Virus record (IMG/VR): IMGVR_UViG_3300045912_000211
Location: 1 to 22,350 of that record
From: a virus
Strand: one strand, 5' to 3'
DNA: 22,350 bases
Shown here: in pieces, positions 1,605 through 19,253 of the stretch
Layout: the number at the start of each line of letters is the position of its first letter
Position numbering within the stretch: the stretch's first letter is position 1
Notes under the pieces: model-generated
The model's input: only the letters and a program-made list of their open reading frames with translations
What the model was told of the DNA's origin: nothing
Databases searched by the model: none
Program-made: the position numbers and the translations under genes

Positions 1605-1676
1605 ATGACGTCCGATCTCGGATTGTGGCTCATTGCAGCGCTGGGGCTGCTCGCATTTGCGGCGGTGTTCGCATGA
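1605..1676 (+). CDS. Possible 23-residue single-span membrane peptide
   Basis: ATG 1605 has GAAGG 9 nt upstream and encodes MTSDLGLWLIAALGLLAFAA followed by VFA, an almost entirely hydrophobic segment long enough for one membrane span. Its TGA overlaps the ATG of the ParB-like gene at 1673 as ATGA, the same coupling used by many genes in this operon. The peptide could be functional or a translational-coupling leader; its small size makes chance possible. Confidence 0.35.
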   Translation: MTSDLGLWLIAALGLLAFAAVFA

Positions 1677-2503
1677 GCGAGACGGTTTTTCCTATTCTGC
1701 CTCTTGGCGAAGAGATCGTGAATGCGAAGGTGCGCGGCGCCGTCGGCACGCTGAAAGTTGTTCCGATCTCGCAGCTTTACGTCGACAGCACCTATCAGCG
1801 CGCGGTCTCGGCAGGATCGGTGCGCAATATCAAGCGAATCTGTTCGGCATTCGACTGGGCCAAGTTTCTGCCTGTCATCGTTGCTCGCGAAGTCGATCGG
1901 TATCTTGTCATTGATGGGCAGCACCGGACTATCGCTGCGGCGACCGTCGGGGTAAAGCAGGTGCCATGCTACATACTGTCGTGCTCGCCGGCGGAGGCTG
2001 CGTCCGCCTTTGCTGCGATCAACGGCAACGTCACCCCGATGCAGCCGATTGATCTTTGGTTTGCGGAACTTGCTGCAAAGGACCCCGATGCGGTCGCGCT
2101 GCAGCAAGTCCTCGATGCTGCGGGCGTGAAGGTGACCCGAAAGAAGGAGGGCTTCGCGGTTGGCGAGACCCGTTCGATCAACGTGCTGCGGCGCGCCTTG
2201 CGTTTCTATGGCTCCGCGATCCTGACCACGATCCTGCAATGCATCGTGGAGACCGGTGACGGCAATCCCGGCATGATCAACGGGGCGTTCGTAAACGGCA
2301 TTGGCTACGCCATCCGCACCAAGCCCGACCTGCTCGCGAAGCCGACCGAGCTGTTCGATGTGCTGGACAAGATTTCGTTGTCCGAACTCTTGCGCGAGGC
2401 GCAGATCGAATACGCCCGCACCGGCAATCCCGTGCAGTTCATCATTACCAGACAGGTCAATGCTGCCCTCAAGCGCGGAAAGGAGCCGGCCCGTGCCGCA
2501 TGA
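1673..2503 (+). CDS. ParB/Sulfiredoxin-fold (DGQHR-type) phage protein
   Basis: A 276-residue protein with a ParB-like N-terminal domain: VVPISQLYVDSTYQR (about residues 29-43) followed by the hallmark DGQHR at 81-85 and a helical region. DGQHR/ParB-fold proteins bind nucleotide or DNA, and some act as nucleases or CTPases; the rest of this one (residues 110-276, with a REAQIEYAR helix) has no recognised motif. Phage copies usually lie in early operons and their role is unsettled. The start at 1673 overlaps the preceding stop; the frame is open further upstream to 1625, but that part matches the hydrophobic mini-ORF region and lacks a ribosome binding site. It overlaps the next gene by 11 bp. 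Confidence 0.8.
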   Translation: MSETVFPILPLGEEIVNAKVRGAVGTLKVVPISQLYVDSTYQRAVSAGSVRNIKRICSAFDWAKFLPVIVAREVDRYLVIDGQHRTIAAATVGVKQVPCYILSCSPAEAASAFAAINGNVTPMQPIDLWFAELAAKDPDAVALQQVLDAAGVKVTRKKEGFAVGETRSINVLRRALRFYGSAILTTILQCIVETGDGNPGMINGAFVNGIGYAIRTKPDLLAKPTELFDVLDKISLSELLREAQIEYARTGNPVQFIITRQVNAALKRGKEPARAA

Positions 2504-5279: not shown

Positions 5280-6743
5280 ATGGACACTCTCGAATTTCAC
5301 CCGCTGGCGAACCTGTTCCCGCTGATCGAAGGCGAGGAATTCGACGCGCTTGCGGGTGACATTCGGGACAACGGGCTGCACGAGCCGATCGATCTCTATC
5401 AGGGCAAGATCCTCGACGGCCGCAACCGCTACCGCGCGGCGCTGGCCGCAGGCATTGAACTCGAAAAACGGAATTTCCGGCACTATCACCCGGAACTGTA
5501 TGGAGACCCGCTCGCCTATGTGATCTCCAAGAATCTCAACCGCCGGCATCTGGACGATCGTCAGCGCGCATCGGTCGCTGCAAAGATCGCGAATTTCACG
5601 CATGGGGGTAACCGCAGCAACCCGCCAATTGGCGGCTTGACCGTCGACCAGGCGGCGGAAAAATTGAACGTCTCGCCCCGGCAGGTTGAGCGCGCTCGCA
5701 CAGTGCATGACCACGGTGTGCCGGAAGTCCGCGATGCTCTCGACCGTGGTGAAATAGCGGTGTCCGCGGCGGAGCGCATTGCTCGCCTTCCGCAGAAAGA
5801 GCAGGTCGAGGTGATCCGGCGCCACCTGCCCAACGGTTCCCGAGCAATAATGGGCTCGCGGGTCGAGCCGGACGATAGCCTCGACTATTTCCCCACTCCG
5901 CCGTGGGCCACGCGCGCGCTCATTGAAGTTGTTCTGCGTCAGACCGGCCACGCCGCGAGTGTGCATGCCCAAACGGTTTGGGAGCCCGCATGCGGCGAAG
6001 GGCACATGGCGGAAGTGCTGGCGGAATATTTCGGCGATGTGGTTGCCTCCGACATCCATGATTACGGCTACGGTCACACTGCGAATTTTTTAGGCGATAT
6101 CGTCCCTAGTACGGACGACTGGATCATAACGAACCCGCCGTTCGGCAAGGATGCGGAAGCGTTCGTACTACGGGCGCTGGAATTCGCCCGCGTGGGCGTT
6201 GCGATGTTTCTGCGGCTGCAATGGCTGGAAACCAACGGGCGTTTCGAGCGGGTCTTTCTGCCTCATCCGCCAGCGCTGATCGCGCAGTTTGCGGAGCGCG
6301 TGCCGCTGCACAAGGGACGCTGGGAGCCAGACGGCGATACGGCAACGGCTTATCTCTGGATCGTCTGGCTGAAGCTGCGTGCGGGCCGGGACACGAGGTT
6401 CATGTGGATTCCACCGGGTCAGCGCGAAGCCCTGACGAAGCCCGACGATGCCGAGCGCTTCACCGCGCATCCCGTGATCAGGCGCAGCCCACGGCCCGCT
6501 GCGCCGGTGACCGCACCGGCGGATGCACAAGCACAATGCCAGCCTGAAACAGAGTCGCAATCCGAACCGCAAGCCTTGCCCGATAACGAACACGGCGGTC
6601 CTCCAGGCGCCGTGGAGCCCGCGCATGTCTCCTCAGTCCCCAGCCCCGCAGGCGCGGGCTCGCCTTCTCAAGACGATATCGATCTGACGCTTCCGGATTT
6701 CCTCGACCGGCGGGTGCCAGCGCAGGCGGAGGCGGTGGAATGA
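5280..6743 (+). CDS. ParB domain fused to a SAM-dependent DNA methyltransferase
   Basis: A 487-residue two-part protein. Residues 1 to about 190 are ParB-like: HPLANLFPLIEGEEF, the ILDGRNRYRA box (44-53), then a helix-turn-helix region (LTVDQAAEKLNVSPRQVERA, 120-139). Residues about 200-375 form a Rossmann methyltransferase: PTPPWATRALIE, the SAM-binding EPACGEGHM (235-243), an acidic VASDIHDYGYG and the catalytic NPPF (285-288), a motif typical of N6-adenine or N4-cytosine amino-methyltransferases. A disordered Pro/Gln/Glu-rich tail (400-487) follows. It most likely binds phage DNA through the ParB/HTH half and modifies adenine, perhaps for self-protection. The target sequence is unknown and activity is unproven. 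Confidence 0.85.
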   Translation: MDTLEFHPLANLFPLIEGEEFDALAGDIRDNGLHEPIDLYQGKILDGRNRYRAALAAGIELEKRNFRHYHPELYGDPLAYVISKNLNRRHLDDRQRASVAAKIANFTHGGNRSNPPIGGLTVDQAAEKLNVSPRQVERARTVHDHGVPEVRDALDRGEIAVSAAERIARLPQKEQVEVIRRHLPNGSRAIMGSRVEPDDSLDYFPTPPWATRALIEVVLRQTGHAASVHAQTVWEPACGEGHMAEVLAEYFGDVVASDIHDYGYGHTANFLGDIVPSTDDWIITNPPFGKDAEAFVLRALEFARVGVAMFLRLQWLETNGRFERVFLPHPPALIAQFAERVPLHKGRWEPDGDTATAYLWIVWLKLRAGRDTRFMWIPPGQREALTKPDDAERFTAHPVIRRSPRPAAPVTAPADAQAQCQPETESQSEPQALPDNEHGGPPGAVEPAHVSSVPSPAGAGSPSQDDIDLTLPDFLDRRVPAQAEAVE

Positions 6744-7328: not shown

Positions 7329-7774
7329 GCAACAGCAAGTGGAAATCCGCCATGCCGCTCGGCGACATGACCCGCGACATCGCGATCATGCTGCGGCAGA
7401 GAAAATCGCCCGCCTATATCGCTTCGGTGTTCGGCTGGAGCCTGACCTATTTCCACGAATTCTGCCGGGTCAACCGCATCGATCTGCCGGAGGGCGAATC
7501 CATAGCGCCGCCCGACAGAACGCCGGTGCGGCCCAAGCGCCGCGCAGAGCGAACCTTAAGCCGCCCGCTTCAGCTTTCCTTCAACACCGAGGCCCGCATC
7601 GCGGCCGCCATCCAGGCCGCTGCCATCGAGCGGCAAACCTCGGTCTCCGCCATCATCGATCGCATTCTCACCGGCGCGCATGACCGCGGTCTGTGGCCGC
7701 GTCTGCTCGGCGCCAATGCAGATTCCAGTTCCGTTGCGTCCGCGTCAAACCCGAACCCGGAAACGCAAGGATAA
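7325..7774 (+). CDS. DNA-binding-like protein with HTH and ribbon-helix-helix-like tail
   Basis: A 149-residue protein. Residues about 15-50 (DIAIMLRQRKSPAYIASVFGW) resemble the HTH of the preceding gene, suggesting duplication and divergence. Residues about 88-125 (QLSFNTEARIAAAIQAAAIE followed by TSVSAIIDRIL) fit a ribbon-helix-helix strand plus two helices. ATG 7325 overlaps the preceding TGA. With its neighbour it forms a pair of small DNA binders directly upstream of the replication gene; regulation of replication is inference from context. Confidence 0.65.
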   Translation: MSNSKWKSAMPLGDMTRDIAIMLRQRKSPAYIASVFGWSLTYFHEFCRVNRIDLPEGESIAPPDRTPVRPKRRAERTLSRPLQLSFNTEARIAAAIQAAAIERQTSVSAIIDRILTGAHDRGLWPRLLGANADSSSVASASNPNPETQG

Positions 7775-7783
7775 GCGGGCGGT

Positions 7784-8692
7784 ATGTCGAATCCCTGGAT
7801 GAAGTTCTATCCGTCCGACTGGCGGGCCGACCCGGCATTGCGCGTATGCTCGATTGGTGCGCGCGGTCTGTGGATGGAGATGCTGTGCCTGATGCACGAG
7901 GCGGAGCCTCGCGGCTCGCTGCTGGTGAACGGCAAGCCCGTCAATGACCGGATGCTTGCCAATCTGTGCGGGCTGCCGGCGCGGGACTGCGCGGCGCTGA
8001 TCGGCGAGCTCGAGGATGCCGGTGTCTTTTCGCGTGACGAAGACGGGACGATTTACAGTCGGCGCATGCGGCGTGACCACGCGAAAGCCGAAGAGGGCCG
8101 AAAGCAAGTGTCGAAGCGATGGGGAGGCGACGAAGGCCCGCCGCCGCGTGGACCTAATAGGTCACCTAATAGGTCACCTAATAGGTCACCTAATAGGTCC
8201 GACGATAGGTCACCCCCATCCGGACCTATTACTCAGAAGCCAGAGTCCAGAAGCCAGAGTGGAGAGAACGCGCGCGCGCGCGAGGCGCCGTTGATCGAAC
8301 TGCAGGCTGAAATCGCCACGGAAATCCTTGCGAGCAAGGGACTTCCGCTCGATGCGCTCGAGGGCACAGGCCTGATGCATCAGGCGCAATGCTGGCTGAA
8401 TCAGGGGATTCCGAAGGATTTCATCATCGCAACCGGCATCCGCGTCATCGCCAAGCTGCCGCGCTTCCCCGATCTGAAATACCTCATCACCGCGATGGCC
8501 AACGAGTGGCAGCGGGCCTGTGAACAACCCCGGTCAACATCGGATAAATCCCATGCTCAAACCGCTCCCCGACGTAACGGCATTACCTCCGCAATCGACG
8601 GACTCGTCGAACGCTTTGAAGCAGAGGCGAGCGAAGGTGGCGAAATACGCGAAGCTGTTGCTGGGCTGCTTCCGGACCGGCGATGCCACTGA
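7784..8692 (+). CDS. Phage replication initiator-like protein (DUF1376-type N-terminus)
   Basis: A 302-residue protein. Residues 1-100 (MKFYPSDWRADPALR, SIGARGLWMEMLCLMHEAEP) match the winged-helix N-terminal domain seen in phage O-type and DUF1376 replication proteins. A repeated linker (PNRS units, about residues 123-144) is encoded by the 12-bp iterons at 8153-8212. The C-terminal part (ELQAEIATEILASKGLPLDA, then PRFPDLKYLITAMANEW) is helical. This mirrors lambda O, where the initiator gene contains its own origin. The end at 8692 overlaps the next gene by about 140 bp, unusual here, and the last 10 residues (DRRCH) look out of frame, so a frameshift or a late start of the next gene is possible. 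Confidence 0.8.
   Translation: MSNPWMKFYPSDWRADPALRVCSIGARGLWMEMLCLMHEAEPRGSLLVNGKPVNDRMLANLCGLPARDCAALIGELEDAGVFSRDEDGTIYSRRMRRDHAKAEEGRKQVSKRWGGDEGPPPRGPNRSPNRSPNRSPNRSDDRSPPSGPITQKPESRSQSGENARAREAPLIELQAEIATEILASKGLPLDALEGTGLMHQAQCWLNQGIPKDFIIATGIRVIAKLPRFPDLKYLITAMANEWQRACEQPRSTSDKSHAQTAPRRNGITSAIDGLVERFEAEASEGGEIREAVAGLLPDRRCH
8153..8212. repeat. 12-bp iterons inside the replication gene (candidate origin)
   Basis: Four tandem copies of CCTAATAGGTCA (8153-8164, 8165-8176, 8177-8188, 8189-8200; the last ends in CC) with exact 12-bp period, plus a degenerate fifth copy at 8201-8212 sharing ATAGGTCA. The units are dyad symmetric (GACCTAATAGGTC at 8151-8163 is a perfect palindrome around its centre). 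A half-site GACCTATTA lies at 8223-8231. The period keeps the reading frame, encoding SPNR repeats. Layout and position match iteron origins such as lambda ori inside gene O. Confidence 0.75.
8234..8260. repeat. Tandem 13-bp direct repeat
   Basis: CAGAAGCCAGAGT occurs at 8234-8246 and 8248-8260, separated by one base (14-bp period). It follows the iterons and precedes the CG run; it may be part of the origin or merely a slippage duplication in the linker. Confidence 0.6.
8269..8282. repeat. (CG)7 alternating purine-pyrimidine run
   Basis: Seven consecutive CG dinucleotides encode Arg/Ala in the linker of the replication protein. Such runs can form Z-DNA and are prone to slippage. It lies 69 bp after the last full iteron. 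Confidence 0.6.
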
Positions 8693-9104
8693 TCCGGAGG
8701 TCTACACAACAGCGGTTGTCGCGGTGCTCGCCGATTATCCGGATGACGTCATTGAGCGGGTGATCGATCCAAGGACCGGTCTGCCGTCGCGCCTGAACTG
8801 GCTGCCAACCATCGCCGAGATCAAATCGGCCTGCGAAGACCTTTATGGCCATCGCCGGCGCATGGCGGAATGGCATGACGGCGCGAACAAGCAGATCGCG
8901 GCCCGCAAGACGCTCGCCATCACCGATGGCCGCTCTCCGGAACAGATTGCGGCACACAAGGCGGCGCAGGTGGAAAGCCTGAAGGCGCAGCTCGGGCCGG
9001 GGTTGCGCAAGGGCTACTTGCCGCCGACCGACGGCAGGCATGCGGAGCGGGTCGCTGCGGATCTGGCGCGTCGGCGCGCTCTGCGGGAGGCCAGAGGGGC
9101 ATGA
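8553..9104 (+). CDS. Replication-region protein of unknown function
   Basis: A 183-residue mostly helical protein. The N-terminal part (KVAKYAKLLLGCFRTGDATD, then VYTTAVVAVLADYPDDVIE) and the Trp/Pro segment SRLNWLPTIAEIKSACE resemble the hypothetical proteins that follow initiator genes in alphaproteobacterial phages, in the place of lambda P (helicase loader). The role as loader is inferred from position. ATG 8553 has a GGAT about 7 nt upstream; GTG 8520 and GTG 8637 are alternatives, the latter giving a much smaller overlap with the initiator gene. Confidence 0.65.
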   Translation: MLKPLPDVTALPPQSTDSSNALKQRRAKVAKYAKLLLGCFRTGDATDPEVYTTAVVAVLADYPDDVIERVIDPRTGLPSRLNWLPTIAEIKSACEDLYGHRRRMAEWHDGANKQIAARKTLAITDGRSPEQIAAHKAAQVESLKAQLGPGLRKGYLPPTDGRHAERVAADLARRRALREARGA

Positions 9105-9659: not shown

Positions 9660-10259
9660 ATGGAGATGGGTAATATCGAGCGGGCTGCGATCCATGCGGG
9701 ATTACTCGCCTCTCCCGATGCGCTGCGGCCGGCCTTCCACGATCCGCGGCAGTGGCATGTCCTGGTGGTCGCGCCGAACCACGAACGCAAATCCGCGGAC
9801 TGGCTGCGGGAAACCCATCACCGCGTCTATTTCCCGAATTACTCGGTGCATGTGCGAAGCCGCGGCGGCCAGCGCCGCACCATCGTACGGGCCCTGATAC
9901 CAGGCTATCTGTTCCTGGCCACCGCGCCCGAGGCCGATGTCGACGGCTTGGTCGACGACGTTCCGGGTCTTGTGCGCTGCCTTCGTGATGAGAAGCGCAA
10001 CCTCTACACGGTTCCGGAATGGGAGATCGAACGGCTGCGACAGATCGAAGCCGACTTCAATCTGCCCGGGATCCACGAACGCCCAATCCGCAAATGGCGG
10101 GTCGGCGAGCGCTGCCGCACTGTGGAAAGACTGGGACTTCCCTGGCAAGGGGTGGTCGTGGGACTCGACTCCCGGGACCGAATCATCGTTGAGGTGAAGG
10201 GTCTGCTGGGACGGGCCACGAAGGTCACCCTCGCCCCGTTCCAGATTGAGCCGATATAG
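9660..10259 (+). CDS. NusG paralogue, likely late-gene antiterminator
   Basis: A 199-residue protein with the NusG layout: an NGN domain (residues about 31-110; WHVLVVAPNHERKSADWL, then the hallmark ALIPGYLFLA at 78-87) and a KOW-type C-terminal domain (about 149-199; VGERCRTVERLG and GVVVGLDSRDRIIVEVKG). NusG/RfaH proteins bind RNA polymerase and change its response to terminators. It is the last early gene, followed by a hairpin-rich leader, an intrinsic terminator at 10380-10405 and then the morphogenesis genes, the position of lambda Q. ATG 9660 is preceded by GAGGGA; ATG 9648 and 9666 are possible. It lacks any SsrA-like or other fusion. Confidence 0.85.
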   Translation: MEMGNIERAAIHAGLLASPDALRPAFHDPRQWHVLVVAPNHERKSADWLRETHHRVYFPNYSVHVRSRGGQRRTIVRALIPGYLFLATAPEADVDGLVDDVPGLVRCLRDEKRNLYTVPEWEIERLRQIEADFNLPGIHERPIRKWRVGERCRTVERLGLPWQGVVVGLDSRDRIIVEVKGLLGRATKVTLAPFQIEPI

Positions 10260-18813: not shown

Positions 18814-19253
18814 CGCATCTGCGCCAGCAAATCCGCGCCGCGGCGGTGTCGGCCCTCACCGGGCTCGCCTCGACCGGGGCCAGGGTCTATGCCGGGCGGT
18901 CTCGCCCGCTTGCGAAAAACCACGAGCCGACGCTTCTGGTCTACACCCAGCAGGAATTGTCGGCGCGCTCGTTCAACGGCAATCCCCCGGTGCTCGAGCG
19001 GGTCATGTCGCTGGTCATCGAGGGGCGGGTGTCGACGGCGGGCGAGCCGGACGATGCGCTCGACCAGATCGCCAAGGACATCGAGGCGGCGATGTGGACG
19101 CATCGCAGGTTTGGCGGCATTGCCATCGATACGCGGCTTGCCGACACGATCATCGCCACGGAAGCCGAAGGCGAGCGCCAGTCCGGCAGCATCCGCCTGA
19201 CCTATGAGGTCCGATATCAGTCGCTGGAAGGGTCTGCGGACCTGAACGGCTGA
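18810..19253 (+). CDS. Tail terminator / minor tail protein U-like
   Basis: A 147-residue protein: HLRQQIRAAAVSALTGL helix, ARVYAGRSRPLAKNHEPTLL, VLERVMSLVIEGRV strand and a helix DDALDQIAKDIEAAMW, ending with an antiparallel strand RLTYEVRYQSLEG. This matches lambda gpU and related tail-completion proteins, which cap the tail tube. ATG 18810 overlaps the preceding stop (ATGA). The order FII-U-V is that of lambda. Confidence 0.8.
   Translation: MTHLRQQIRAAAVSALTGLASTGARVYAGRSRPLAKNHEPTLLVYTQQELSARSFNGNPPVLERVMSLVIEGRVSTAGEPDDALDQIAKDIEAAMWTHRRFGGIAIDTRLADTIIATEAEGERQSGSIRLTYEVRYQSLEGSADLNG

Follow-up and report, generated by a model that had tools for sequence, protein, structure and literature searches.

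A putative replication origin of 12-bp repeats and same-strand heptamers within the presumed initiator gene of a virus record

In uncultivated phages the replication origin has rarely been located, and an array of short tandem repeats in the middle of a presumed replication gene raises the question of whether its DNA serves as an origin as well as encoding a protein linker. We addressed this question for IMG/VR virus record IMGVR_UViG_3300045912_000211, positions 1 to 22,350 (the window). Based on sequence comparison and structure prediction, we consider it very likely that positions 8152-8260 form a putative origin of theta-type replication that lies within the linker codons of the phage's own initiator gene. 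We distinguish the following features at the locus.

7784-8692, plus strand: presumed replication initiator gene, 302 amino acids, carrying the array (weak replisome-organizer profile hits; 102 relatives)
7784-8068, plus strand: N-terminal winged-helix domain, residues 1-95 (AlphaFold2 model, mean pLDDT 88.5; fold matches)
8069-8122, plus strand: basic extension RRDHAKAEEGRKQVSKRW, residues 96-113, whose type tracks the repeat type (KRW/GGN co-variation)
8152-8199, no strand assigned: the 48 bp of lowest stability anywhere in the 22,350-bp record, a candidate unwinding region coinciding with the repeats (nearest-neighbour profile)
8152-8163, plus strand: repeat unit 1, ACCTAATAGGTC
8164-8175, plus strand: repeat unit 2, ACCTAATAGGTC
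8176-8187, plus strand: repeat unit 3, ACCTAATAGGTC
8188-8199, plus strand: repeat unit 4, ACCTAATAGGTC
8200-8211, plus strand: repeat unit 5, degenerate, CGACGATAGGTC (12-bp register)
8212-8223, plus strand: repeat unit 6, decayed, ACCCCCATCCGG (by register only)
8224-8235, plus strand: repeat unit 7, the last, ACCTATTACTCA, abutting the heptamers (class-A last-unit consensus aCCTAtTACtCA)
8233-8260, plus strand: heptamer array of four CCAGANN units, TCAGAAG CCAGAGT CCAGAAG CCAGAGT
8261-8689, plus strand: C-terminal domain, unlike those of the relatives compared (no recognised relative in the relative set or in phage records)

The four exact copies of ACCTAATAGGTC at 8152-8199 (TRF score 96) each contain the 11-bp dyad ACCTA-A-TAGGT. 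ACCTAWTAGGT is confined to the array, with no other site in the 22,350-bp record, and when up to two mismatches were allowed the record held 6 matches compared with 0.74 expected from shuffles. The original prediction had described four perfect, dyad-symmetric 12-bp repeats with a degenerate fifth and a frame-preserving period, all of which we confirmed, including CGACGATAGGTC at 8200-8211. The array it delimited stopped short: the strict 12-bp register continues past unit 4 to give seven units in total (8152-8235), in frame with gene 7784-8692. What had been read as a nearby inverted half-site is unit 7, which stands in register at 8224 and is kept by relatives as the last direct unit; since the unit is palindromic, both descriptions agree with the letters there. 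The placement of repeats in the linker was correct, but a second direct-repeat element, the heptamers at 8233-8260, had been overlooked.

The gene product is presumed to be an initiator on the basis of weak profile hits and a winged-helix model. Profile searches with the window protein gave weak matches to phrog_13246 (replisome organizer, E 1e-4) and phrog_9327 (primosomal protein), and a match to PF09681 below the cut-off (E 0.18). The protein exceeded no Pfam cut-off for the lambda O, SPP1 or pSK41 families and matched no lambda-O-type Pfam or PHROG profile up to E 1. Against Phage_rep_org_N (PF09681, curated cut-off 23.3 bits) it scored 12.3 bits, and the domain alone 15 bits; for DUF1376 (PF07120, cut-off 30.1 bits) it was unlisted and 2 of 15 relatives matched, with a best E of 0.021. 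Modelling of the N-terminal 121 residues predicted a winged helix followed by a long C-terminal helix (residues 93-113). The best PDB matches were RepA_N initiators, at modest values (Z 6.5-7.4, rmsd about 3.8, 85-87 residues), and profile and sequence comparison gave no RepA_N sequence match to the window protein. Among viral models, the winged helix matched DUF1376 and replisome-organizer proteins.

An alignment-guided scan together with DNA scans yielded 102 non-redundant related genes, which share a common plan: a winged-helix domain, 11- or 12-bp repeats, same-strand heptamers (in most members, not every one) and a variable C-terminal domain. The array is mid-gene in all members and always 3' of the same winged-helix domain. 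The commonest repeat is GGWTAACC (64 genes), also with a 12-bp period, and other types include CGTTCAACGG, GTCACG and GCAATGC, several of them with an 11-bp period. When the array was compared with phage records by BLAST, only Pam1 and phiLM21 matched meaningfully; a match in Escherichia phage KMB41, which falls on the opposite strand within a functionally unassigned gene neighbouring capsid and tail genes, was rejected as chance. The array is at 33839 in Pam1 and at 18863 in phiLM21. Pam1, an isolated cyanophage, is about 60% identical in the N-terminal domain and its linker holds CCTAATAGGTCACCTAATAGGGAGCCTAATA at the same place as the window array. We searched 385 genomes from the class to which the Sinorhizobium locus belongs for the 19-mer and obtained one match, in G103, where the window's gene family was not recognisable in the reading frames at the match. 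Two DNA patterns joining the last unit to the heptamers, neither using protein information, matched 9 and 26 contigs among 2.9 million; in 34 of these 35 contigs the match lies in the window's gene family (the exception is L191), a tally that counts L203, in which the contig end truncates the gene, and that includes several contigs already known from the protein search.

The linker DNA of these genes is under selection beyond the needs of the protein, as evident from synonymous shuffles, codon choice, frame-breaking 11-bp arrays and the heptamer register. Our null shuffled synonymous codons within each gene, keeping protein and codon usage. Across the 102 genes, self-similarity of the linker exceeded this null at lags 7 (z 8.7), 14 (z 7.1), 12 (z 6.4) and 11 (z 5.6), and palindromes were likewise in excess (z 7.7), while the N- and C-terminal regions displayed no comparable lag or palindrome peaks. 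In 14 class-A genes the PNR motif is written with CCT (36/36), AAT (36/36) and AGG (29/29); the corresponding counts in the remainder of these genes are 42/227 (other prolines), 39/101 and 35/329 (other arginines). Copies within one gene are not independent, and the genes are spread over many phages. Arrays with an 11-bp period break the reading frame and so cannot be in-frame protein repeats. The conservation in relatives beyond protein needs that the original prediction had proposed looking for is therefore present, in the CCTAATAGGTCACCTAATAGGGAGCCTAATA of Pam1 as well as in the shuffles, codon choice and 11-bp arrays.

Protein comparison by itself had found 76 genes; in 64 of these the coding strand carries CAGAAGCCAGAAGCCAGA, an 18-mer, with at most four mismatches, whereas on the opposite strand the closest gene still had at least seven mismatches; a recognisable heptamer array was absent from 12. 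The heptamers are always on the same strand in the genes that carry them. Positions 1-5 are conserved at 81-95% and positions 6-7 at about 68%, and this conservation tracks position in the heptamer, not in the codon, the copies standing in different codon phases. A heptamer 21-mer alone matched 71 contigs, compared with 5 for a reversed-heptamer control, and in 47 of the 71 the match lies in the window's gene family. Of 61 distinct contexts upstream of the 21-mer, 29 had a best period of 12 bp and 19 one of 11 bp. All seven further heptamer-bearing reading frames that we tested were DUF1376 genes with the heptamers in the same place; the DUF1376 contigs with (CCAGAAG)3 after the domain (L109, L113, L114, L125, L132, L151 and L165) have an array identical to that of the window family. 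In roughly half of the relatives L020-L099, short-looped hairpins (the loop is often TAAC or TAAA) occur 5-60 bp 3' of the heptamers, with a summed stem length of 315 compared with 138 (sd 23) in synonymous shuffles. Despite this family-wide enrichment the window's own downstream hairpins are weak, and for this reason we leave them outside the main claim. In the window an alternating-CG run (8264-8281) lies directly past the heptamers.

In a nearest-neighbour stability profile, 8152-8199 ranked first of 22,302 windows, and the array/linker of Pam1 is likewise the least stable stretch (rank 1). The least stable 1% of the locus was reached in the linker of 53 of 67 relatives, compared with 3 of 67 for an N-terminal control. 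The linker was also less stable than its synonymous recodings (z 19.7 over all genes, z 6.3 for the window); the flanking regions show the opposite sign, which in part mirrors the linker result, as AT-rich codons are redistributed by this null. GC skew does not turn at the array in phiLM21 and turns there only loosely in Pam1, and is uninformative in both phages because it is confounded by gene strand.

Repeat type and protein sequence change together. Class-A repeats are accompanied by ...KRW past the winged helix in 15/15 genes and class-B repeats by ...GGN in 64/64, a complete co-variation across the 79 A- and B-class genes. In L020 (A) and L038 (B) the winged-helix domains are 87% identical, yet extension and repeats differ. 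This could mean that the extension recognises the repeats, or else that extension and array move together as a single cassette. In a poorly resolved tree of the N-terminal domain, class A needs six changes on the best tree while the starred branches force one, so independent class switches cannot be counted. Natural pairs such as L020 and L038, with similar winged helices and different repeats, make initiator specificity directly testable, and the same layout with different repeat sequences across about 100 related genes makes the rules of origin recognition testable.

We weighed three other readings of the composite, which could in principle serve another DNA-binding function. That the repeats are an operator for transcription of the replication module, bound by the initiator or by a phage or host regulator, or else a partition site, is unlikely. 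Palindromic 11-bp units would suit a dimeric regulator, and CI/Cro-like genes and a ParB-like gene (1625-2503) in the window make these roles conceivable; however, no promoter-like or terminator-like sites were found in 7700-8700, the array keeps its mid-gene place in all members, 3' of the same winged helix and mostly 5' of same-strand heptamers, its type changes together with part of the very protein that the gene encodes, and low stability of its DNA is under selection. A second alternative is that the linker DNA, above all the heptamers, marks a recombination boundary where phages exchange N- and C-terminal modules, much as has been proposed for boundary sequences in lambdoid phages. The C-terminal domains do differ beyond the heptamers, the window's being unlike the others, and the L020/L038 pair with its differing extensions and repeats also speaks for exchange, but this reading, which we regard as very unlikely, leaves unexplained the regular 11/12-bp arrays of many sequences, the low duplex stability, and the conservation of heptamer positions with two of them free. 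In-frame slippage giving a low-complexity PNRS linker, with DNA lacking a function of its own, suits the four identical copies and frame-preserving 12-bp period but is extremely improbable, being contradicted by rare codons fixed across 14 genes and by the relatives' 11-bp arrays, and further opposed by the heptamer register and the retention of the motif in cyanophage Pam1.

The putative origin is best explained as one of the iteron type embedded in the initiator gene, like lambda ori, SPP1 oriL and the pSK41 Rep boxes. The locus has tandem dyad-symmetric repeats between the N- and C-terminal domains, selection at the DNA level, and a low-stability region at or beside the repeats. In lambda ori, dyad-symmetric initiator sites lie in gene O between its DNA-binding N-terminal and partner-binding C-terminal domains, with easily melted DNA (PMC6022878, PMC5043065). 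The predicted resemblance held for this layout, which the window reproduces as initiator domain, linker repeats, easily melted DNA and separate C-terminal domain, and the CI-Cro-initiator gene order of lambda recurs in the window gene's relatives. It did not extend to sequence kinship, and the nearest solved folds are RepA_N. Lambda has four 18-19-bp inverted repeats next to a distinct AT-rich region of roughly 40 bp, whereas the window has seven 12-bp units in register, is least stable in the array itself, carries a heptamer array after the repeats and encodes a protein without a lambda O family match. In SPP1 oriL of Bacillus phage SPP1, direct repeats bound by the initiator lie within gene 38, encoding the G38P replisome organizer (PMC6316719). 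This shares with the window the position of direct repeats in the initiator's own gene, but the repeats are different, the AT-rich unwinding element is separate, and SPP1 encodes a loader and a helicase, unlike the window record, in which no DnaB-type helicase was recognised. The RepA_N initiator of pSK41 has a winged-helix N-terminal domain of about 120 residues, four Rep boxes central in rep, an ori-encoded linker and a genus-specific C-terminal domain (PMC5703833), and the RepA_N plasmids pSK41 and pTZ2162 carry semi-palindromic direct repeats (PMC7145576). These are the window's top solved-structure matches, at modest Z only, and differ in sequence, unit length, heptamers and phage context. 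DUF1376 and Phage_rep_org_N have a predicted fold similar to that of the window protein, and DUF1376 has the identical heptamer array, but the protein falls below either family's cut-off.

If the array acts as an origin, the winged helix and basic extension would bind the 12-bp units as an array, and binding would bend and strain the easily melted repeats so that the duplex opens there and/or toward the heptamers. The C-terminal domain may then deliver the replicative helicase, or the loader of that helicase, to the strand thus exposed; the window record, which may be a fragment, holds no recognised DnaB-type helicase, so the recruited helicase is probably the host's. The CCAGANN heptamers would be a directional accessory element, most likely a site of single-strand capture, helicase loading or primer start. 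Their complementary strand reads NNTCTGG, presenting CTG every 7 nt. CTG is the start triplet of E. coli primase, and a link between the two is a guess.

The layout is known, but the gene family, repeats and heptamer element appear undescribed: neither the heptamer nor an origin within such genes was described in the literature searched, which excluded most subscription journals, and the genome papers of Pam1 and phiLM21 mention neither heptamer nor in-gene origin. Also new, in our view, is that repeat type co-varies with a short segment following the winged helix. With the balance slightly against it, we tentatively suggest a large, undescribed class of phage origin, made up of two separable DNA modules within the initiator gene, in which swappable 11/12-bp arrays are read by the short extension and not the conserved winged-helix core, and a near-universal, strand-fixed (CCAGANN)n element, used by at least two initiator families (the window's and DUF1376), serves helicase loading or primer start. 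In practice, an in-gene 11/12-bp array followed by same-strand CCAGANN heptamers is a sequence rule that leads to a candidate origin.

In the wider genome context, DnaB_C helicases were found in the records of 10 of 30 relatives, and both Pam1 and phiLM21 have a CI-Cro layout in which a replicative helicase precedes the gene. Two weakly ParB-like genes of the window (1625-2503 and 5280-6743, the latter also weakly matching a methyltransferase) lie between the CI/Cro-like region and the initiator. A NusG/UpxY-type transcription antiterminator is encoded 3' of the initiator at 9675-10259, and phiLM21 has an antiterminator in a similar position.
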